A stretch of DNA of 64,000 bases, from the NCBI GenBank assembly GCA_035651655.1, contig DASRFG010000014.1, positions 1 through 64,000 of the forward strand. The letters run 5' to 3'. The notes under the pieces were generated by a model. That model saw only the letters and a program-made list of their open reading frames with translations. It was not told the DNA's origin and did no database searches. Positions 30,319 through 55,805 of the stretch are shown here, piece by piece. Position numbers and translations under genes: made by a program. Position 1 is the first letter of the stretch, and each line of letters starts with the position of its first letter. This DNA comes from Terriglobales bacterium (GTDB lineage Bacteria > Acidobacteriota > Terriglobia > Terriglobales > Acidobacteriaceae).

Positions 30319-30362
30319 TAGTGGGGCTCCGATAACATCGGGCAGACCTTCAGGAGATGAAC

Positions 30363-31466
30363 ATGAAATCGCGCTTGGCCGTTTTATTCAGTTTCTGGAT
30401 GTTCTGGGTGGCGAGCCTGCACGGGCAGGCTAATCCACCATTGAAGTTTCTGCAGAGCATCGACATGCCCAATGTAGAAGGCTACTTCGACCACCCGGCC
30501 GTTGATGTTAAAGGCCAGCGCCTGTTCGTTCCCGGCGAATTCCAAGAGACGCTCGAGGTCCTGGATCTTCGTGCCGGCAAGACGATTCACTCGATTACCG
30601 GTTTGGGCGGGCACCCGCGGAAAGTCATCTATATCCCGGAATCAAACCAGATCTGGGTAGACCTGGGAAGCGGTCAGTGCAAAGCGTTCAGCGGCGATTC
30701 GTACCAGCTGCTCAAAACGGTCCAGCTGAATCCTGATTCGCCACCGGAAGCCGGACGGGAACCCGATAACGGTGTGTACGATCCCGCCACACATTTGTTT
30801 TATATCGGCGATCGCGGTGACCGTTCTAAAGAAGATACGAAGGGTTCGATCGAAATCGTGGACACCAAAGCCGGTTCGTACGTAGGTGCGATCACTCTGG
30901 ACGACAATGATCCCGCCGGCCTGGCGCTTGACCCTGGCTCACCAAGGATGTATGTCGTGCTGGGGCAGACGAGCCGTGTTGCAGTGATTGACCGGGAGAA
31001 GCGTGCCGTTGTTGCATTGTGGCCGATCACGGGAGGGCCGCTGCCACATGCGCTGGGTCTCGATGCAGCCCATCGTCGCCTGTTCATCGGCAGCCGCGTT
31101 AAGAAAGGACATATTTACAAGCCCGGGAAGATGGTGGTGATGGATGCCGACAACGGCAAAATAATTACGGTCATAGATAGTGAGGGTGGCGTGGATGAAG
31201 TGGAGTATGAACCTAAGAGTCAGCGCGTCTACTTCACCGGCACCACTGGCGGGGTAGACGTTTTCAAGCAGGTTGATGCCGATCACTATCAGCGGTTGGC
31301 ACTGGTTCCGACAAGCCCTATCGCCAAGACATCCCTGCTAGTGCCTGCGCTTAAACGGTTCTACGTGATCGTTCCGAAGCACATCATCCTCACACCACCG
31401 ATTCCGCAGGAGAAGGAAGCGAGTATCGAGGATGCGAAAGTGATGGTGTTCGAAGTGCTGCCATAG
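30363..31466 (+). CDS. Secreted YncE/YVTN-type beta-propeller protein 1
   Basis: A 367-residue protein with a Sec signal (SRLAVLFSFWMFWVASLHGQ). The rest is a seven-bladed YVTN/YncE-like propeller with repeated phrases such as VDVKGQRLFVPGEFQETLEV, LALDPGSPRMYVVLGQTSRV, AVIDREKRAVVALWPITGG, LGLDAAHRRLFIGSR and VMDADNGKIITVI. Function within the family ranges from DNA-binding periplasmic proteins to cofactor-linked and scaffold roles, so none is assigned. Start 30363 is preferred to 30357 because AGGAG then has a normal spacer. It is the first of five such proteins in this region and has its own triple-repeat promoter. Confidence 0.85.
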   Translation: MKSRLAVLFSFWMFWVASLHGQANPPLKFLQSIDMPNVEGYFDHPAVDVKGQRLFVPGEFQETLEVLDLRAGKTIHSITGLGGHPRKVIYIPESNQIWVDLGSGQCKAFSGDSYQLLKTVQLNPDSPPEAGREPDNGVYDPATHLFYIGDRGDRSKEDTKGSIEIVDTKAGSYVGAITLDDNDPAGLALDPGSPRMYVVLGQTSRVAVIDREKRAVVALWPITGGPLPHALGLDAAHRRLFIGSRVKKGHIYKPGKMVVMDADNGKIITVIDSEGGVDEVEYEPKSQRVYFTGTTGGVDVFKQVDADHYQRLALVPTSPIAKTSLLVPALKRFYVIVPKHIILTPPIPQEKEASIEDAKVMVFEVLP

Positions 31467-31604: not shown

Positions 31605-32651
31605 TTGAAGCTCTTCCGCTTAACTCGCATCGTGATGTGTCTGTCAGTACTTGCCGTGTTTGCGCCCAATGCACTCTCGGAATCTGGTTATCATTTATCC
31701 AAGACATATAAATTCGGGGCGGCGCCGGGAGGTAAGGAGTATTTCGACTACATCACGGTAGATGCGCCCAACCGTCGCGTTTATCTCTCCCATGGCAGTG
31801 AGGTGCTGGTGGTGAATGCAGACACGGGCGCGCTGGTGAAAAAGATTTCCGGGTTCGACCGGAACCATGGAGTCGCACTGGTGAAGCCACTTGGACGCGG
31901 ATTTGTGAGTGATGGCGATGCGGGCAAGGTCGTCGTATTCGACCTCAAGACTCTGAAGACCATTGGCTCGGTAAAAGCTGCGGAGGATGCTGATTGCATC
32001 GTTTACGATCCGGCATCAAAGCGCATCTTTACTTTGAACGGCGACGCCGGTACTACCACAGCGATCGATCCCCAAGCCCAAACTCTGATAGGGGCGGTTG
32101 AATTGGGCGGAAAGCCCGAATTTGCCGCAGCGGATGGGAAGGGTACTCTTTACGCCAACCTTGTGGACAAGAATGAAGTGGTCGCCGTTGACACTCGCGC
32201 GATGAAGGTAAAGTCTCATTGGCCGGTGGCGCCAGGCGGTGCTCCTGTCTCCATGGCGATCGATCGAGTACACCGGCGCCTCTTTATTGGAGCGCGGGAT
32301 CCCAAAATGCTGGTTGTCATGAATGCTGATAACGGGAAAGTTGTCCAGAGCTTGCCCATCAGCGGGGGAGTTGACGCTACTGTTTTCGACCCAGAAAGTG
32401 GCACCGTATTCACTTCCACGCGGGAAGGGAAGATTCACATATTTCACGAAGACTCGCCCGATCACCTCAGTTCCGTGGAGACGGTTAATACTGAGGTCGG
32501 TGCCAAGACCATGGGGTACGACAGCAAGACCCACAATCTGCTAACGGATACGGCTGACTTCGGAGCGCCTCCGGCACCGACCGCGGAAAAACCGCACCCC
32601 AGTCCGGCGGCAGTTCCGGGAACGTTACGCCTTCTGGTTTACAGCAAGTAG
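31605..32651 (+). CDS. Secreted YncE/YVTN-type beta-propeller protein 2
   Basis: A 348-residue protein with a Sec signal (LTRIVMCLSVLAVFAPNALS). Propeller blades follow: DYITVDAPNRRVYLSHGSEV, VVFDLKTLKTIGSVKAAEDA, IVYDPASKRIFTLNGDAGTT, MAIDRVHRRLFIGARDPKML and VMNADNGKVVQSLPISGGVD. The C-terminus has a Pro-rich loop (APPAPTAEKPHPSPAA). The start is TTG with GGGAGG seven bases upstream. It is a paralogue of the neighbouring propellers, with its own triple-repeat promoter. No enzymatic motif is visible. Confidence 0.85.
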   Translation: MKLFRLTRIVMCLSVLAVFAPNALSESGYHLSKTYKFGAAPGGKEYFDYITVDAPNRRVYLSHGSEVLVVNADTGALVKKISGFDRNHGVALVKPLGRGFVSDGDAGKVVVFDLKTLKTIGSVKAAEDADCIVYDPASKRIFTLNGDAGTTTAIDPQAQTLIGAVELGGKPEFAAADGKGTLYANLVDKNEVVAVDTRAMKVKSHWPVAPGGAPVSMAIDRVHRRLFIGARDPKMLVVMNADNGKVVQSLPISGGVDATVFDPESGTVFTSTREGKIHIFHEDSPDHLSSVETVNTEVGAKTMGYDSKTHNLLTDTADFGAPPAPTAEKPHPSPAAVPGTLRLLVYSK

Positions 32652-34256: not shown

Positions 34257-35276
34257 CTACTCTACCTTGTAAGCATAGATCTCACCCCGCGAAGTTCCTT
34301 GCGGGGGTATTGCAACGAAGTACCGCTGGATGGAATTCACCAGGATTGCATTCTTTCCCAGAGGACCCGAGGGCACTTGCGCCAGAGTGTCAAATTTGTC
34401 GGGGTCCTTCTCCTGGATTACCGCAATCGCGCCACTGCCGCCTCCAGAAGCGGCATAGATGCGCTTTCTCGCGGCGTCGAAGATCAGCTCATCGACATTC
34501 TTTTCGATAGGAACAGCTTCGATTTCCTTGCCCGTATCCGTGTTGAGCACAACCACCGCGCCACTCCGGCAGCCGACGAACAAGCGATGGTTACCCTCAT
34601 CAAGCGCCATGGCCACATTCACCTTGCCACGCGTGATTGGCCAACTCGCCACCACGGCCCGCTTCTCACGATCGAACACCTCAACCTGATTCTTTGCCCG
34701 ATTATTGATGTAAATCCGCGGACTGGATTTGGCTAATGCCATCGCCTCAAGCGTCTCCCCATCAATCTTGACGTCGGCAATCTTCTCCCCTGAAGTGGTG
34801 TCCACAATGCTGAACATGGAGAAGCTGTCGTGGGCGTCGCCCCCGCCGTTGTCGATGTAAAGATATTTGGTAGCTGGATCGTAGCCCACGGAATCGGCAT
34901 CAACCTTCAGTCCCACAGTCTTCAATAATTTATAGGTCTTTCCATCGAAGATCTTGAGATCGCCAGTGCCGCCATCCGTGACGTAAAGCCGGTCCAGATC
35001 GTCGCGATAGAACACGGCGTGCGGAACCTGCACCCCGTCTATGTTGCGGATCCACTCTCCGCTTTGGAGGTTGAAAACCAGGACGGCGTGTGCCGCCTCT
35101 GCGGCGAGGAACAAGCGATTGCCTGCAACATCAACTCCGAAGTGGTCGAAGCGGGTCGCCTTGATGGTCTCCGGCATTGGATATTTTCCGACCAACGTCA
35201 AAGGGCCGGCCGCGTAAACGCTGGTTGCAAGAGCCGTTACAACCGCCGCCAGTGCCAGCTTTTTTACGAGCAACAT
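34257..35276 (-). CDS. Secreted YncE/YVTN-type beta-propeller protein 3
   Basis: A 339-residue protein with a Sec signal (VKKLALAAVVTALATSVYAA). Blades include FGVDVAGNRLFLAAEAAHAV, VLFYRDDLDRLYV-type phrases, VGYDPATKYLYIDNGGGDAH, EVFDREKRAVVASWPITRGK, MALDEGNHRLFVGCRSGAVV and IFDAARKRIYAASGGGSGAI. It closely resembles propeller 4 (48601-49671) in blade wording. It is first in an apparent operon with the MmgE/PrpD gene, under triple-repeat promoter site 3. The molecular role is not known. Confidence 0.85.
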   Translation of the reverse strand: MLLVKKLALAAVVTALATSVYAAGPLTLVGKYPMPETIKATRFDHFGVDVAGNRLFLAAEAAHAVLVFNLQSGEWIRNIDGVQVPHAVFYRDDLDRLYVTDGGTGDLKIFDGKTYKLLKTVGLKVDADSVGYDPATKYLYIDNGGGDAHDSFSMFSIVDTTSGEKIADVKIDGETLEAMALAKSSPRIYINNRAKNQVEVFDREKRAVVASWPITRGKVNVAMALDEGNHRLFVGCRSGAVVVLNTDTGKEIEAVPIEKNVDELIFDAARKRIYAASGGGSGAIAVIQEKDPDKFDTLAQVPSGPLGKNAILVNSIQRYFVAIPPQGTSRGEIYAYKVE

Positions 35277-48600: not shown

Positions 48601-49671
48601 TCACTTCACATCGAACACTTTGACACTTGCCATTTTTGACCCGACTTTAGAGCCATCGGCCTTACAGACGGCGACGTATAAGCGGCTTAACTCGGGGACA
48701 AAAATGGCCGTCTTACCTCCGGGAGAGCTCGGCACATTGGCTACAACCTGGTAGTGGTCTGCATCAGTTTGCCCATAGACAACTACGACGCCTGCACGCG
48801 TTGAAACGTAAATTCGCTTGCGAGCTGGGTCTAAAAAGATGTCGTCCGCGCCGGTGGCGCTGGGTAGGCTGGCGACTTGTTTCCCGCTGGTTGAGTCCAA
48901 TACCACCAAGCGCGGTGGCGTGCGAGTAACCACAAGCAGCCTGTGGTTCGCCTCGTCGAGTGCCATGGGAGAATTCTTCTGGCCTGCCGTAATGGGCCAG
49001 GTTTCAACGATTGCGCGCTTTTCGCGATCAATCACCAGGACACGGCTATTCGCTGTATCGTTCACGAACATCCGTGGACTGGAGGGTTCCAATGCGATCG
49101 CCTCCAGCTGCGGTGACTCGATACGAATATCGGCAATGTGCTTGTCGGTGTTCGTGTCGGTGATGCTAACCGCCGAGTATTTCAGGTTTGCGCCTTTACC
49201 GCCGTTCACTGTGTACAAATACCCGGTAGAAGGATCGAAGGCAGAAGAGTCCGCATCTTCCATTAACTTGACGGAGTCAATGGGCGCGTAGGTATCTCCT
49301 TTGAGGAACTTCACCTCAGCAGCGCCACCATCAACCACAACCAGTTTGTTTGCCTGTGGAAGATAACGCACGTAGTGCGGCTCGCCAAACCCGCCGACAC
49401 TGCGGAGGTGTCTTCCGGACTTAAGGTCGAAAACTTCGATGCTCTTGTGATCTTCGGCTGTAAGAAAGAGGCGATTACCTTTCAGATCAAGGCCAAAATG
49501 GTCGAAGTCGCCATCAATGTCCTTGAGCGAAATAGTTTGAACTAGTCGGAGGGGAGCGCTGGCTGTGCTCTTGGCGGCAGCCTTCGTGATCTTCGGTTTG
49601 GAGTCCCAGGAATGCGCATTGCTCGTCAATGCAAGGACAAGAGACACACAGACGAGATTGAACTTTCTCAC
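48601..49671 (-). CDS. Secreted YncE/YVTN-type beta-propeller protein 4
   Basis: A 356-residue protein from the GTG at 49671, which has AAGGAGG seven bases upstream; the longer frame to 49830 is not supported. A Sec signal (KFNLVCVSLVLALTSNAHS) is followed by propeller blades: FGLDLKGNRLFLTAEDHKSI, VVVDGGAAEVKFLKGDTYAP, SAFDPSTGYLYTVNGGKGAN, LVIDREKRAIVETWPITAGQ, MALDEANHRLLVVTRTPPRL and IFLDPARKRIYVSTRAGVVV. It is most like propeller 3. It is first in the operon with an ACS carrier and the PEP-mutase family gene. Confidence 0.85.
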   Translation of the reverse strand: MRKFNLVCVSLVLALTSNAHSWDSKPKITKAAAKSTASAPLRLVQTISLKDIDGDFDHFGLDLKGNRLFLTAEDHKSIEVFDLKSGRHLRSVGGFGEPHYVRYLPQANKLVVVDGGAAEVKFLKGDTYAPIDSVKLMEDADSSAFDPSTGYLYTVNGGKGANLKYSAVSITDTNTDKHIADIRIESPQLEAIALEPSSPRMFVNDTANSRVLVIDREKRAIVETWPITAGQKNSPMALDEANHRLLVVTRTPPRLVVLDSTSGKQVASLPSATGADDIFLDPARKRIYVSTRAGVVVVYGQTDADHYQVVANVPSSPGGKTAIFVPELSRLYVAVCKADGSKVGSKMASVKVFDVK

Positions 49672-49728
49672 AAATCCTCCTTCAGCCGCCCTACCCCTGG
49701 CCAAAAGCCCCTGATACCAGACGATGAA

Positions 49729-49771
49729 ACTATAGCCAGTGCAGATTAAGGATTCCTGAACGCCAAATAAA
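49729..49771 (-). promoter_or_regulatory. Triple direct-repeat promoter, site 6 (before YncE 4 operon; degenerate)
   Basis: Minus strand TTTAT (49771-49767), TTCAG (49760-49756) and TTAAT (49749-49745), 11-base spacing; the first unit departs from the consensus. After ten bases comes a strong -10, TATAGT (49734-49729). The start codon is 57 bases beyond. Confidence 0.55.
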
Positions 49772-49916
49772 TCGGATTCCAACGCCCCGAGACGCCCAGA
49801 GGACAGAATGCCGGCAATTTGATCTCCCATTTTCGTCCGTGCTGCTACCGATCACACGCACGCGGCCGTCTCTTCTCTCACTTATGCCTTGACACGCCGT
49901 CATACAATGTCAGCTC

Positions 49917-50633: not shown

Positions 50634-52454
50634 CTAACGCATGACAAGCGTGTTCATGCGCTTCGGAACTTCACCCACCGGTATGAGCGCAATCGGTTTT
50701 ATCGTTTGCGAATCGATGACTGAAACCGAGCGTGCTCCAGAATTTGAAACGTACACCCGCTTGCTGTCTGGCGTGAACGTTATCCATTCAGGCACCGCGC
50801 CGGAGCGTTCCGCACCCAAGGAATGGACCAGGGGGAGAGATGCGTGTCCCATTAACGTAAGGTCGGGAAGGGAATATTTGAAGACGGCGTTCGCCACCGT
50901 GCTGTTAACCCATAGCGACTTGCCGTCTGGCGCGACGCCGATCCCGTGGGACGGGCTTCCCATACGTCCCTCAGCGATGCCGAATCCACTCGGCTCATCG
51001 GGGAGCTTGATCCTGGCTGCTTCTGCTCGCTTGGCGAAATCCACCACGGCAAACCCATTGAAATTCGACAGCTGCAGAAAAATTCGACTGGTGGATCCAT
51101 CCGCATTCACGGCAAACGTCATGGGGCGAACGCCCTGGTCAAACTTGACTTCCCACACGGCTTCGTTTTTCTGAAGATCGAGAACCGTCATGGTTTTCGC
51201 CTCGATAGAGCCGCTCACCGCGAACTTTCCGTCTGGCGTGACATAGATGTTGTGCACGCTCCCATTCATCGGAATAGTGTTCAGTCGCCGTAGCGAACTT
51301 GCGGAGATTACGTCTACCGCGCCTCGCGGGTGGCGGATGCCTACCAGCACTCGTTCTCCATCCTTTGTAATGGTCAGGTTGTTGGGACGGCCGCTCAAAG
51401 GTACCTTGTGCAGAATTTCCCCTGTATGCGAGTCAACCACATCCAGAGTGCTCTCCGATTCGTTACTGATGTAGACTCGGCTGCCGTCAGGTGAGAAGAC
51501 CACTCCGTGGGGCAACTCTATCCCACGAATAACCTGCACAACCTTGTTTGTGGATGCGTCCACAACATCAATGGTGTCGGCTGCGCTGTTGGTGACATAG
51601 ATGCGTGCCCCTCCACCGGGCATGGAAATCGCCCCCCTTTTTAAGTCCCTCACCCACTGAGCGAGAATTAGCCAGTCAGGATCGTTCTCCGACTGGAATT
51701 GCCGGCCGCCGGAATGAAAAGGGTCGCCTCCCGCTTCCGGAGCCAGGGGATGCATCAGCAGTCTGCTGGATCCCGGGTCCCCTGGTGCCACTTGCTGGAC
51801 TGCGCTCTGATAATTGCGTCGGGTTTGCTCGGGTGTCCAGGCTAGCGCGCCAGGGGGCAATGGCTCGAGTCGGAAGATCCGGTTGGCTTCAGTGTGGCAG
51901 CCGTAGCAGCGCGCGTGCCCCGGCCGCTCCTTCAGGAAAACAGGCTGAACACGGGTCGCAAAGAAGTCCAGTTCGGGAGTGTCTTGTGGTCTGGCAGAGC
52001 TTCCACTGGACGGAGCACCAGAAGAAGCGCCGCCGATCCAATTTGCCACCAGTTGCCATTCCGGGTCCTGCCGCGATTGCCAGAATTTGCCGCCAGTGTG
52101 TGTGGGATCTCCTCCCTCCTCAGTCGCAAGCGGATGGAGCAACAAGCGACTCTCAAGAGGTGCTGAGGGGACCACTAGTTGAGAAACTGCCTCGAAATTC
52201 TGGCGCGACTGTTCCTCTGTCCAGGAAGAATTACCTTGTGTCAGCGGCTGTAATCGCAGGCGCGTAGCAATGGCAGAGTGGCAATCGTAGCAGCGCATTC
52301 CCCCGGGACGCTGCTTGAGGAAGATCGGCTCGATCCGCGAGCGATATACCTCAAAATTCAACGGTGATGCCGGTGCTGCTTGTCCGAAGGGTTGCGGACT
52401 GTGGGTGGCGAACAAAATGCCCACCACCCACAGCGCTTGCGCTAGCTTAGGCAA
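50634..52454 (-). CDS. Two CxxCH domains fused to a YncE/YVTN propeller (propeller 5)
   Basis: A 606-residue exported protein (signal within residues 1-25). It has two similar ~125-residue N-terminal modules, each with one CxxCH: Cys55-Cys58-His59 (MRCYDCHS) and Cys183-Cys186-His187 (ARCYGCHT). Each ends with a matching WQLVANWI or WLILAQWV helix. This is the layout of planctomycete-type cytochrome c modules. From about residue 285 a propeller follows (IYVTNSAADTIDVVDASTNK, VVFSPDGSRVYISNESESTL, ITKDGERVLVGIR, VYVSNSGARSVSVID). The CxxCH sites suggest covalent haem and electron transfer. It follows the TonB receptor gene by 21 bases and is probably cotranscribed from site 7. Confidence 0.85.
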   Translation of the reverse strand: MPKLAQALWVVGILFATHSPQPFGQAAPASPLNFEVYRSRIEPIFLKQRPGGMRCYDCHSAIATRLRLQPLTQGNSSWTEEQSRQNFEAVSQLVVPSAPLESRLLLHPLATEEGGDPTHTGGKFWQSRQDPEWQLVANWIGGASSGAPSSGSSARPQDTPELDFFATRVQPVFLKERPGHARCYGCHTEANRIFRLEPLPPGALAWTPEQTRRNYQSAVQQVAPGDPGSSRLLMHPLAPEAGGDPFHSGGRQFQSENDPDWLILAQWVRDLKRGAISMPGGGARIYVTNSAADTIDVVDASTNKVVQVIRGIELPHGVVFSPDGSRVYISNESESTLDVVDSHTGEILHKVPLSGRPNNLTITKDGERVLVGIRHPRGAVDVISASSLRRLNTIPMNGSVHNIYVTPDGKFAVSGSIEAKTMTVLDLQKNEAVWEVKFDQGVRPMTFAVNADGSTSRIFLQLSNFNGFAVVDFAKRAEAARIKLPDEPSGFGIAEGRMGSPSHGIGVAPDGKSLWVNSTVANAVFKYSLPDLTLMGHASLPLVHSLGAERSGAVPEWITFTPDSKRVYVSNSGARSVSVIDSQTIKPIALIPVGEVPKRMNTLVMR

Positions 52455-52475: not shown

Positions 52476-55400
52476 TTACCAGATAAATTTCACAGCAAAT
52501 TGAATTTCCCGGGCCGTGGTACTGGTCCGCGAAAGTCTTCCGGCGACCCCCGTTGGAGCTCCAGTTCCGTCAAATATATCCGTATTGTCCGGGGTAGTAG
52601 GCGGGGCAAAGTTCGCATGATTCAGTGCGTTGAACAATTCCGCCCGGAACTGCACGTTGAAGGTCTCCGATATTCTTCGAATGTGGTTGTTTTTGAATAT
52701 TGAAAAATCCATCTCTGTTACTCCAGGGCCGGTAAGGATGTTCCGTCCCGCGTTACCGCGAAGATTGAAACAATCCGGGAAGGAGACGGGTCCACCAACG
52801 CTGGGTGGATTCTTGTCACAGTTGGCATTCCAGAATGCCAGAGTAGGCGCCGCAGGTACGGTGAAGCACTCTGTCTTGACGTAATGGTCGGGATTTCCTG
52901 GATTAATAAGGCTGCTGCATCCAGGGGTAGTAAGGCGATTGGGAACGTCCCAGTCATCGCTGCTTAACGTTCCCAGGGGGTCACCGCCAGTGGCAAAGGT
53001 AGGACTGAAAGGAACCCCGTCACTAGCCTGGAAAATCATTCCCAGCTGCCACCCATCCGAAAACCAACGCACCGGACCGGAGAGCGACTTGGGCGCGGGC
53101 ACTTCCCAAGTTCCGTTGAGTACGAAGGTGCGTCCAATGTTGTAATCGGATACACCGCGGCTCACGCGCGGGTCAAACCACGTCAAGCTCGAAATGGAAT
53201 TGCCGAACGCGTCTCCCGCCACGGTTGCCGAACTGGTATCAATACTCTTGCCCCAGGTGTAAGCGCCTTGCACTTGAAAACCATGGCTCATGCGTTTAGC
53301 CACCTGCAATTCGAGCGCGTTATAGTAGGAGCGGCCCACGTAGAACATTCCTCGAATTGACCCGAAGTTTTCATTAAAGCGTGAGGGAGGCTGACCGGTT
53401 GTAAGTAAGTTGCCATCGGCATCCACCTGCGGCCACAGATAACCGGCAGCGGTTTTCGTCGGCATTACCTGGTCTGCGTCATCAACCCGGAAGGGTTGAT
53501 GGACTCCGCGTGATCCCACATATGCCACCATTGCGCTGAGGGTTGGCGTTAGTTGCTGCTGCACATTGAGGTTCCACTGCATCACGTAATTGCGTTTGGG
53601 GTTGGGCTCAATATATGTGCCTCGTATTTTGCCGGCCGGTAGAACCGATGGCAGTCCAGAGAAAAAAGCTTGTGGCGTGGTGAAGTCCGACTTTGGGATT
53701 ACCGTGTACTTGAAGAATGGTGTAGCGAGAGTCGTCAAAAGTATGAACTGATAGGGCAGTGGCTGCACATCAAATAGACCGACTCCGCCGCGGACCGCCG
53801 TCTTCCCGGTGCGGAACGGGTCCCAGGCAAACCCAACCCTCGGCTCGAAATCCCGCGTGGTGGGATTGCTAAAGAATGGATCCCCGAGATGTGGAACCGC
53901 GTCCGTAAGATTCCGCAGATTCGAGAGCTTGCCACTTGTTTCCGTTGGCACCGTGGACATCTCGTAGCGGAGTCCCAGGTTCAGTGTCAGGTTCGGCTTC
54001 CATCGCCAGTCATCCTGCACGTAAGCGCCAAACAGTGTCTGGCGGAGATGCCTGGGGCTGACTGTACTTACTACGCCACCCTGGAATCTTTTGGGGTTGT
54101 TCGTCAAGAAGTCCTGCAAGGTCTTGAATTGCCAGATCCCGTTCGGGTCAGTGAATGCGGAAACATTCAGATGCATGCGCTCGGCAGAGAACCCGAAGGC
54201 GAGTGAATGCGTGCCCTTGGTGAGAAAGGCATCATCGTAGATTTGAAAGGAATCCCAGCCATACAAATATGTCGGAAGCCCGCCAACTCCACCCGGCATC
54301 GGGGTCACCGCACTGATCTGAACTTGCGTCGCGTTTCGACCCGCAAACGATCCCAGCGATGGGTCGGCTGCTGCTGGATTGATTGCGCTCACGCTCTGAT
54401 TGTTGTTCACGATTTGATGTTGGTACCCGAATCGAAGGGCATTAACGAGAGCAGAGGTAAACGAATGTGTCTCCTCCACGGCCAGGATGTGGCGTGAGGT
54501 CAGGCTTCCGAGCAAGACGTTGTTCATCCCATCGGGAGAGTTGTAAGGAGTGCGGTCAAACATGTACGTGCCAAAAAGGCCGTCTTTTTCGGAAAAGCGG
54601 TGATCAATGCGCGTCGTAACGAAATTTTCGTTGACCACCTGCTGACCTGCAAAACTGAAGGTTGCGATATCGGGATTGTCAGTGACCGCGCCGTTGGGTA
54701 TGGGATAGAGTGCCAAATATTTCTGCGCCGCGGGGTCTACGGATACGGTTATAGGATTACCCGAAGAGTCATGGATGTGCCCGGCACGCGCCGCGAGTGT
54801 CGGAACAGTATCCACCGCTGTTAGGCCTTTGGCCTGCCGAACTCCTTCATAATCGGCAAAGAAGAACGTACGATCTTTGAAGATGGGGCCCCCCACCGCT
54901 CCACCGAACTGGTTTCGCTTGAATGGGGGAATTTTGTCCCCATCGAAGTAGTTTCTCGCGTCCAATGCGCTATTGCGCAGGAACTCGTAAGCACTGCCGT
55001 GGAAAGCGTTGGTTCCGGTGCGCGTTACTGCGTTCACTACACCCCCGGAGGTCTTGCCGTATTGCGCTGAATAGTTACTTGTCAAGACTGAGAACTCCTG
55101 GATGGCATCCACTCCCAGGTTCCCGCCCAACACGCTTCCGGGTGCCCCATTTGCATAGTCGTTGAGGCTGACGCCATCCAGACGGTAGTTGTTCTGCTGC
55201 GGCCGGGCCCCCGAAATCGTCAACTGTTGCCCAAAACCACGATTGCCGCGATCGGCTCCTACGGCAAAAGATGGTTGCGTATAGATGGTGTCCACGCCTG
55301 GCTGCAGCGTCGCCAGGTCCGTCCAGCTCCTTCCGTTCAACGGTAATTCACGAACCGTGGTGGCATTCACTACCGCGCTTATGTCGGAGGAAATCAGCTG

Positions 55401-55805
55401 GATCGCGGGCACCTCAGAGGTCACTTCAACTTTCCTGGTCTCGGTCCCGACTCGCAGGGTCAGGTTCAGCGTTTGCTGCGCCCCAACCGTCATCAAGATT
55501 CCTCTTCGCACCTCGGTATTGAAGCCGGCAGCTGAAGCCGTGATTTCGTAGGGGCCGGGAGTCAGGTTGGCAACGGTATAGAAACCATCGGTATTGGTCT
55601 CGGCCGTCCTTATAACTCCCGTTGACGTGTTCTTAATGTCCAAGTGAACGCGCGTTACAACCGCGCCCGAGGGATCCAGAATCGTTCCTTGCAACGCACC
55701 GCCTGCTACCTGTGCGTGTACGTGAAGACAAACCGCCAATGCAAGCACCGCGAACGAGCTTGCTGCCAGGCGAGCACTGCTTCGCGAGCATAGTCGTAGG
55801 TTCAT
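52476..55805 (-). CDS. Oar-like TonB-dependent receptor with carboxypeptidase-regulatory N-domain
   Basis: A 1109-residue outer-membrane protein. The signal (RLAASSFAVLALAVCLHVHA) is followed by a CarboxypepD_reg-like domain (about 33-120, LQGTILDPSGAVVTRVHLDI ... GFYTVANLTPGPYEITASAA), a plug domain (TVRELPLNGRSWTDLATLQP) and a long beta-barrel ending in aromatic Trp (FAVKFIW). Such receptors import large or scarce substrates with TonB energy; this acidobacterial group is large and mostly uncharacterised. It is the first gene of a transcript that also encodes the CxxCH-propeller protein, with triple-repeat site 7 upstream. It is the likely outer-membrane entry point for the regulon's substrate. 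Confidence 0.9.
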   Translation of the reverse strand: MNLRLCSRSSARLAASSFAVLALAVCLHVHAQVAGGALQGTILDPSGAVVTRVHLDIKNTSTGVIRTAETNTDGFYTVANLTPGPYEITASAAGFNTEVRRGILMTVGAQQTLNLTLRVGTETRKVEVTSEVPAIQLISSDISAVVNATTVRELPLNGRSWTDLATLQPGVDTIYTQPSFAVGADRGNRGFGQQLTISGARPQQNNYRLDGVSLNDYANGAPGSVLGGNLGVDAIQEFSVLTSNYSAQYGKTSGGVVNAVTRTGTNAFHGSAYEFLRNSALDARNYFDGDKIPPFKRNQFGGAVGGPIFKDRTFFFADYEGVRQAKGLTAVDTVPTLAARAGHIHDSSGNPITVSVDPAAQKYLALYPIPNGAVTDNPDIATFSFAGQQVVNENFVTTRIDHRFSEKDGLFGTYMFDRTPYNSPDGMNNVLLGSLTSRHILAVEETHSFTSALVNALRFGYQHQIVNNNQSVSAINPAAADPSLGSFAGRNATQVQISAVTPMPGGVGGLPTYLYGWDSFQIYDDAFLTKGTHSLAFGFSAERMHLNVSAFTDPNGIWQFKTLQDFLTNNPKRFQGGVVSTVSPRHLRQTLFGAYVQDDWRWKPNLTLNLGLRYEMSTVPTETSGKLSNLRNLTDAVPHLGDPFFSNPTTRDFEPRVGFAWDPFRTGKTAVRGGVGLFDVQPLPYQFILLTTLATPFFKYTVIPKSDFTTPQAFFSGLPSVLPAGKIRGTYIEPNPKRNYVMQWNLNVQQQLTPTLSAMVAYVGSRGVHQPFRVDDADQVMPTKTAAGYLWPQVDADGNLLTTGQPPSRFNENFGSIRGMFYVGRSYYNALELQVAKRMSHGFQVQGAYTWGKSIDTSSATVAGDAFGNSISSLTWFDPRVSRGVSDYNIGRTFVLNGTWEVPAPKSLSGPVRWFSDGWQLGMIFQASDGVPFSPTFATGGDPLGTLSSDDWDVPNRLTTPGCSSLINPGNPDHYVKTECFTVPAAPTLAFWNANCDKNPPSVGGPVSFPDCFNLRGNAGRNILTGPGVTEMDFSIFKNNHIRRISETFNVQFRAELFNALNHANFAPPTTPDNTDIFDGTGAPTGVAGRLSRTSTTAREIQFAVKFIW

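Follow-up and report, generated by a model that had tools for sequence, protein, structure and literature searches.

In the cd1-type reductases NirS and NirN, a cytochrome c domain precedes the propeller within the same chain; they have a single c haem, and their eight-bladed propeller binds haem d1. NosZ has seven His ligands for CuZ and a CuA domain with a Cys pair. FoxE, which functions in Fe(II) oxidation, contains two haems and uses the Met of an MPPG motif as a haem ligand. The alpha subunit of hydrazine synthase is described as harbouring a class I fold whose haem (alphaII) is ligated by two His residues, His689 and His772, and the beta subunit as a seven-bladed propeller (PMC12607021; PMC12758564). 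Thiocyanate dehydrogenase is presented as a seven-bladed propeller with a three-copper site in its tunnel and a monohaem cytochrome c as electron acceptor (PMC9456337). AztD is described as an eight-bladed propeller that transfers zinc, held in its pore by three His (PMC6689063).

The window analysed here, a stretch of 64,000 nucleotides from an acidobacterial genome, encodes a protein in which two probable haem modules of the CxxCH/HxGG type precede a seven-bladed YncE-type propeller (Table 1). The components are known singly; the combination is undescribed as far as literature searches on it show, and searches aimed at YncE/YVTN-cytochrome fusions returned nothing on the topic among the papers listed, judged by titles and the starts of abstracts. 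The protein probably goes beyond carrying electrons and acts as an electron-transferring enzyme.

Table 1. Features of the module-propeller gene, its product and the upstream receptor gene, in window coordinates. Counts refer to cytochrome-linked propellers or to distinct modules, as defined in the text.
Feature	Position	Strand	Basis
Gene for 606-aa exported protein (predicted), two CxxCH modules and propeller	50634..52454	-	ORF list, Pfam, AF2
Hydrophobic signal-peptide-like region, residues 1-25	52380..52454	-	By eye from sequence
Module 1, residues 32-143, probable c-type haem module	52026..52361	-	AF2, profile, alignment
CxxCH of module 1, residues 55-59	52278..52292	-	Motif search
HTGG of module 1, residues 119-122; predicted distal ligand His119	52089..52100	-	Module alignment
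Module 2, residues 158-272, probable c-type haem module adjoining propeller	51639..51983	-	AF2, profile
CxxCH of module 2, residues 183-187	51894..51908	-	Kept in 124/124 modules
HSGG of module 2, residues 247-250; predicted distal ligand His247	51705..51716	-	Kept in 124/124 modules
Seven-bladed YncE-type propeller, residues 281-606	50637..51614	-	Pfam, AF2, structure comparison
His316, blade 2, start of innermost strand	51507..51509	-	76/76 cytochrome-linked propellers with a residue there
His401, blade 4, start of innermost strand	51252..51254	-	77/77 cytochrome-linked propellers
His503, blade 6, start of innermost strand	50946..50948	-	76/76 with a residue there
TonB-dependent receptor, carboxypeptidase-regulatory-like N-terminal domain	52476..55805	-	Pfam, 21-bp gap

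Organization of the gene and its product

The gene initiates at a TTG codon, separated by 21 bp from the stop codon of the TonB-receptor gene on the same strand; an earlier start is impossible, since a TAA lies in frame directly 5' of the TTG. Given the short gap, the two genes are probably carried on one transcript; a promoter and terminator scan yielded nothing beyond shuffle level. The product is predicted from its sequence to be exported, and would be periplasmic or face the outer membrane; residues 1-28 have a pLDDT < 50 in the AF2 model of the 606-aa protein.

All four Cys residues of the protein fall within the two CxxCH motifs, for which the first-pass annotation gave exact positions (residues 55-59 and 183-187). 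None of 20,000 shuffled versions of the protein contained two or more CxxCH motifs. The module duplication reported in that annotation is genuine, with a local alignment score of 310 (maximum 54 in 1000 shuffles); the repeat period is 128 residues and the folded module spans about 115. A YncE-like propeller does follow the modules, as had also been proposed (Pfam YNCE, PF21783, 44.7 bits; cut-off 27.1), and Pfam Cytochrom_D1 likewise scores above its cut-off on the propeller (39.6 versus 25.5).

Two probable bis-His haem modules

Cys183, Cys186, His187, Ser230, His247, Gly249 and Trp267 (module 2 numbering) are invariant in 124 distinct modules, a set picked by profile from loci L001-L120 with no demand for [HM]xGG, although the profile itself was built on an alignment (A2) whose members were chosen by a pattern demanding [HM]xGG; stretches of less than 90 residues were dropped and near-identical sequences retained. 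The invariance of the HxGG His makes this residue, rather than a Met, the predicted second axial ligand; His235, also considered as the distal ligand, was rejected on account of its presence in only 94 of the 124 modules. An AF2 model computed for one module with 64 relatives (pLDDT 93) displays class I cytochrome c topology, with helices at residues 6-20, 29-33 and 105-116 and the HxGG motif (residues 93-96) directly preceding the last helix. The candidate position for the distal Met of class I cytochromes is occupied by His in 124/124 modules, and His/His ligation of the module haems is very probable. Of the axial ligands raised in the first-pass annotation, Met or His, His is the one predicted.

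The module has no assigned family in Pfam, NCBIfam or PHROGs. Neither module of the window protein reaches the cut-off of any Pfam or NCBIfam cytochrome model, and no match of 65 modules to these models is better than E 0.017; the weak matches are to PccH (9/65 modules, best E 0.027), SorB (5/65, best E 0.022) and single strays. The Planctomycete cytochrome model PSCyt1 (PF07635) matches one of the 65 modules (E 0.46) and, at E 1, does not match the window protein. Foldseek with the module alone found no significant PDB match (best E 7.8).

The module profile does match FoxE of Rhodobacter ferrooxidans (PDB 5mab), its best solved relative by profile, with an E-value of 1.9e-4 over nearly its full length, a similarity that does not imply a shared function. 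The alignment with one FoxE domain extends from the N-helix of the module to its C-helix and has CxxCH in register, whereas FoxE has its MPPG Met where the module has HxGG (with a one-residue alignment shift) and its 291-residue chain contains no propeller. In a structural second look with VIA-align, covering eight chains, the sole row returned was hydrazine synthase chain D (5c2v_D, residues 506-791), onto which 95 residues of the module were superposed with a middling Z of 6.0, weak alone, and an rmsd of 3.2.

Haem attachment is possible in this organism, since its genome contains Ccm-like genes: a CcmF-like gene adjoins a CcmH-like gene, and CcmA-, CcmB- and CcmC-like genes lie elsewhere (the PF01578 matches come from Pfam, the gene names from inspection). 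ResB of the System II maturation pathway was sought in the genome and not found. The genome holds only these two modules, as judged by two module-query searches, one of them with the profile at E 0.1. The first-pass annotation had read CxxCH as a site of covalent haem attachment, and this reading is well supported by the invariant CxxCH and distal His, the class I topology, the FoxE profile match and the Ccm-like genes; haem is predicted in both modules with high confidence.

Conserved residues of the propeller

The strand list of the AF2 model comprises seven four-stranded blades. Conservation was assessed in a cleaned set of 77 cytochrome-linked propellers, fused and split, obtained from 80 rows by removing L079 (no visible module) and L030 and L093 (truncated copies of L008); rows without a residue at a position are not counted. 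In addition to the three His residues listed in Table 1, Asn358 (77/77), Arg443 (76/77), Trp557 (75/75), Lys598 (71/75) and Arg599 (75/75) are conserved, and all 49 full-length proteins share His316, His401, His503, Asn358, Trp557, Lys598 and Arg599. His is carried by blades 2, 4 and 6, and blades 1, 3, 5 and 7 carry Lys/Arg, Asn, Arg and Glu/Trp, respectively; by the strand list, all of these residues stand where the innermost strands begin, which places them in a ring at one mouth of the propeller tunnel. The family signature, an HxGG haem module followed by a propeller whose blade starts carry HG, E, PN, HN, R, HG, W and KR, provides a simple handle for finding and annotating members. His316, His401 and His503 constitute a candidate metal site that is rather likely to be occupied, with copper likelier than zinc.

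The three His are also kept in 5/5 companion propellers that lack a module. Module-less companions with the three His and with Arg in place of Met445 occur in syntenic loci (L031:13212-14243, L034:13245-14294, L046:8071-9105 and L080:9976-10989). A search of the window's genome revealed no such companion and no second propeller near this family, the best other stretch scoring 67.5 bits versus 755. Three stretches of 1l0q, a generic YVTN propeller, were aligned, and none has a His opposite the first His.

The propeller is similar in fold to those of NosZ (Z about 33) and thiocyanate dehydrogenase (Z about 32). The latter enzyme differs in having three coppers and its cytochrome on a separate chain, and the likeness is one of fold. 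When the His-carrying blades were aligned by hhalign with the NosZ-like blade SPHGVDVSPDG, matches were obtained for His401 (E 2.5e-4, probability 43%), His503 (E 4e-4, probability 35%) and His316 (E 0.015, probability 3%); these weak alignments, all on one NosZ blade, suggest blade equivalence and not descent. The yardstick was L121, among the best matches to the L-NosZ model and NosZ-like by its motifs, together with its relatives, and the His of SPHGVDVSPDG is taken to be a CuZ copper ligand, consistent with NosZ His mutants among PDB titles. Instead of the seven His ligands and the CuA domain of NosZ, the present protein has three invariant His and no Cys outside CxxCH, and it scores 70.8 with the L-NosZ model (NCBIfam NF052460; cut-off 700). 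This model gave some match in 158 of 199 Acidobacteriota genomes and none above cut-off; NosZ-like open frames in genomes of this phylum (L121-L130) all fall under it.

The module and the propeller each match one chain of hydrazine synthase (5c2v), but in that enzyme they are separate subunits, the active-site haems differ and no His occurs at the aligned propeller positions. The score with the hydrazine synthase beta model (NCBIfam NF052340) is 71.9 against a cut-off of 560, and that with the E. coli YncE equivalog (NF052280) 54.8 against 400 bits; the seven blades of the model contrast with the eight of cd1 nitrite reductases. By these tests, the protein lies outside the NosZ, hydrazine synthase beta, E. 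coli YncE equivalog and cd1 families. Quinohaemoprotein amine dehydrogenase chain 1jju_B is also among the Foldseek matches. The binding of a single metal by three His in a propeller pore is described for AztD (PMC6689063).

Pairing of modules and propellers

A whole-protein search of genome contigs identified 53 loci, and the module profile, which was built mostly on propeller-linked modules and favours the detection of linked ones, matched 31 of 297 Acidobacteriota genomes. Of 29 module loci (the window's genome excluded), 8 carry the propeller in the module's own frame, 11 carry it in an adjacent frame, and 10 have no such propeller in flanks of about 1.5 kb or less per side. Five of these ten are long proteins, in frames of 1,413-1,512 aa, and three are short proteins that belong to a different branch; one locus is cut by a contig end, and the last is a stand-alone module (G107), around which no such propeller lies within 7.5-8 kb on each side (16 kb). 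A scan of relatives at loci L001-L030, a set in which the window is counted and one gene is represented by more than one locus, gave 11 fused, 7 adjacent and 12 without a propeller. Among plasmid records, 472 match the protein and none covers more than 80% of its length. Fusion or adjacency of the propeller to a haem module recurs in Acidobacteriota, Alphaproteobacteria and Gammaproteobacteria, with single-module fusions also present in Gammaproteobacteria. The pairing is a conserved unit, a feature that the first-pass annotation had missed, as it had the invariant residue set at the tunnel mouth.

Fused and split forms are mixed in the module tree. One group (16 tips, support 0.98) contains the first modules of the two-module fusions, and another (27 tips, 0.99) their second modules together with those of single-module fusions; the gammaproteobacterial modules group together (22 tips, 0.998) and are joined by three acidobacterial ones (25 tips, 0.86). 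In split two-module proteins, too, the first modules are placed apart from the second and single ones; the duplication therefore looks old, and loss of module 1 could explain the single-module proteins, though the rooting is uncertain. That module 1 is a recent addition was considered and dropped, as the first modules of other two-module proteins likewise lie outside the second/single group.

The long proteins represent a separate use of the module. A long acidobacterial protein of the ~1,400-1,500 aa class (L135:7094-11521) ends in an HxGG module; the four others that were scanned all match HEAT repeats, two of them above the Pfam cut-off.

Gene neighbourhood

The link to a TonB-dependent receptor, on which the first-pass annotation had built, holds for Acidobacteriota and, for this receptor cluster, does not extend to Gammaproteobacteria. 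A receptor of the same cluster lies within five genes upstream on the same strand in 22 of 26 acidobacterial loci, the window included, and directly upstream in 8; the exceptions are L035, L037, L050 and L054. That cluster is absent from all 24 gammaproteobacterial loci, a count that leaves room for receptors of other kinds. Recurring acidobacterial neighbours are MFS transporters, enzymes of the PrpD and isopropylmalate dehydrogenase types and a two-component system, together with an amidohydrolase that recurs outside the window. Among the 24 gammaproteobacterial loci, a dicarboxylate symporter is present in 20, an amidase and a RidA-type protein in 17 each, and a flavin amine oxidase and a cytochrome c cluster in 13 each, every partner cluster being typed from one representative. 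Small class I cytochromes c are encoded near two split module/propeller pairs. No single substrate fits all members, because the gene contexts differ between phyla; on this sequence evidence, the module-propeller protein appears to serve different pathways. For the window, the neighbours and the Arg and Lys residues of the propeller allow the guess that the substrate is a small acid.

Proposed function and alternatives

The reading favoured here, though finely balanced, is that of an exported redox enzyme, in which the propeller is a tri-His, probably copper-dependent, oxidoreductase and the bis-His haems of the same chain act as relays. His316, His401 and His503 would hold a metal, most likely copper, at the tunnel mouth. 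The TonB receptor would assist in importing a small, probably carboxylated substrate, which Arg443, Lys598 and Arg599 would grip. The propeller would oxidize the substrate and pass electrons to the module-2 haem and then the module-1 haem, from which a small soluble cytochrome c would carry them to the respiratory chain. The recurrent fusion or adjacency to a haem module suggests that the propeller gives up or receives electrons; redox catalysis there, with transfer of electrons to the haems, is predicted, with a confidence that falls slightly short of an even balance. Counting against the favoured reading, the tri-His propeller of plasmid pMR68 has no module within a 9.5-kb stretch. A periplasmic redox role is likely for the protein, in keeping with the electron acceptor or donor suggested in the first-pass annotation, but that description understates a propeller with its own invariant tri-His set. 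More tentatively, and on balance doubtfully, the proteins would constitute an undescribed family of periplasmic copper oxidoreductases with a mononuclear tri-His site and bis-His c haems, fused or split, in Acidobacteriota and Gammaproteobacteria.

It is unlikely that the protein is a plain electron carrier, in which bis-His c-haem modules are joined to a propeller that serves as a docking platform like hydrazine synthase beta. This subunit ranks high among solved propellers in similarity to the present one (profile E 5.9e-31, Foldseek rank 2), and it is described as having no cofactor and a likely structural role (PMC12607021). Against this, the tunnel mouth carries the invariant His/His/His/Asn/Arg/Trp/Arg set, and the aligned stretches of hydrazine synthase beta have no His at those positions, with one His a residue off.

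Quite improbable is a non-redox metal propeller, such as a zinc-type hydrolase, a lactonase or an AztD-like metallochaperone, tethered to a cytochrome with a separate role in electron transfer or redox sensing. The three-His pore zinc reported for AztD (PMC6689063), the 6-phosphogluconolactonase fold of the propeller (6nau, Z 37.9) and the module-less pMR68 propeller near a mercury operon are consistent with such a role, whereas the fusion or adjacency to haem modules recurs in three proteobacterial and acidobacterial lineages and the AztD NCBIfam model scores 27.5 against a cut-off of 400.

A propeller that binds haem d1 or another tetrapyrrole, as in a cd1-like reductase such as NirS or NirN, is highly improbable: Cytochrom_D1 scores above its cut-off and both proteins are among the best 50 Foldseek matches, yet the model has seven blades rather than eight, and the NirS alignments, at 551-596 columns longer than the propeller, have an rmsd of 14-22 A. 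Equally remote is a haem-free module that binds zinc or forms a disulfide, for which the scores below every cytochrome cut-off would speak, but against which stand the class I topology, the FoxE match, the invariant CxxCH and distal His, the signal-peptide-like start and the Ccm-like genes.

If the tri-His site of the favoured oxidoreductase binds copper, Acidobacteriota and Gammaproteobacteria would share a type of periplasmic oxidase that couples the uptake or catabolism of some substrate directly to c haems. Relatives on annotated plasmids are named 'hypothetical protein' or 'cytochrome D1 domain-containing protein', names that conceal the conserved active-site-like ring.

Other propellers in the window and on plasmids

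Four further propellers with signal-like starts are encoded in the window (30357-31466, 31605-32651, 34257-35276 and 48601-49830). The first-pass annotation suggested that the fusion would change the reading of these propellers, which finds no support in their scores of 35.7-57.2 bits with the profile of the present propeller (523.7 for the latter) or in a cluster of 44 of their relatives, in which Asp and Arg are conserved and no His reaches 85%. They belong to a different, Asp/Arg-conserved group, possibly of lactonase type.

The propeller on plasmid pMR68 of Pseudomonas sp. K-62 (L137:2484-3539) has the three His, 52% identity and Gln in place of Lys598, and is encoded close to a mercury-resistance operon and to a propeller resembling virginiamycin B lyase. 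A 'cytochrome D1 domain' propeller on a Ciceribacter selenitireducens plasmid (L138:5527-6666) has another His set (PHN, PAH, PHG and AHG, by eye) and lies inside a copper cluster with a multicopper oxidase, copper-binding proteins and cytochromes c, which again hints at an association of His-lined YncE-type propellers with copper.
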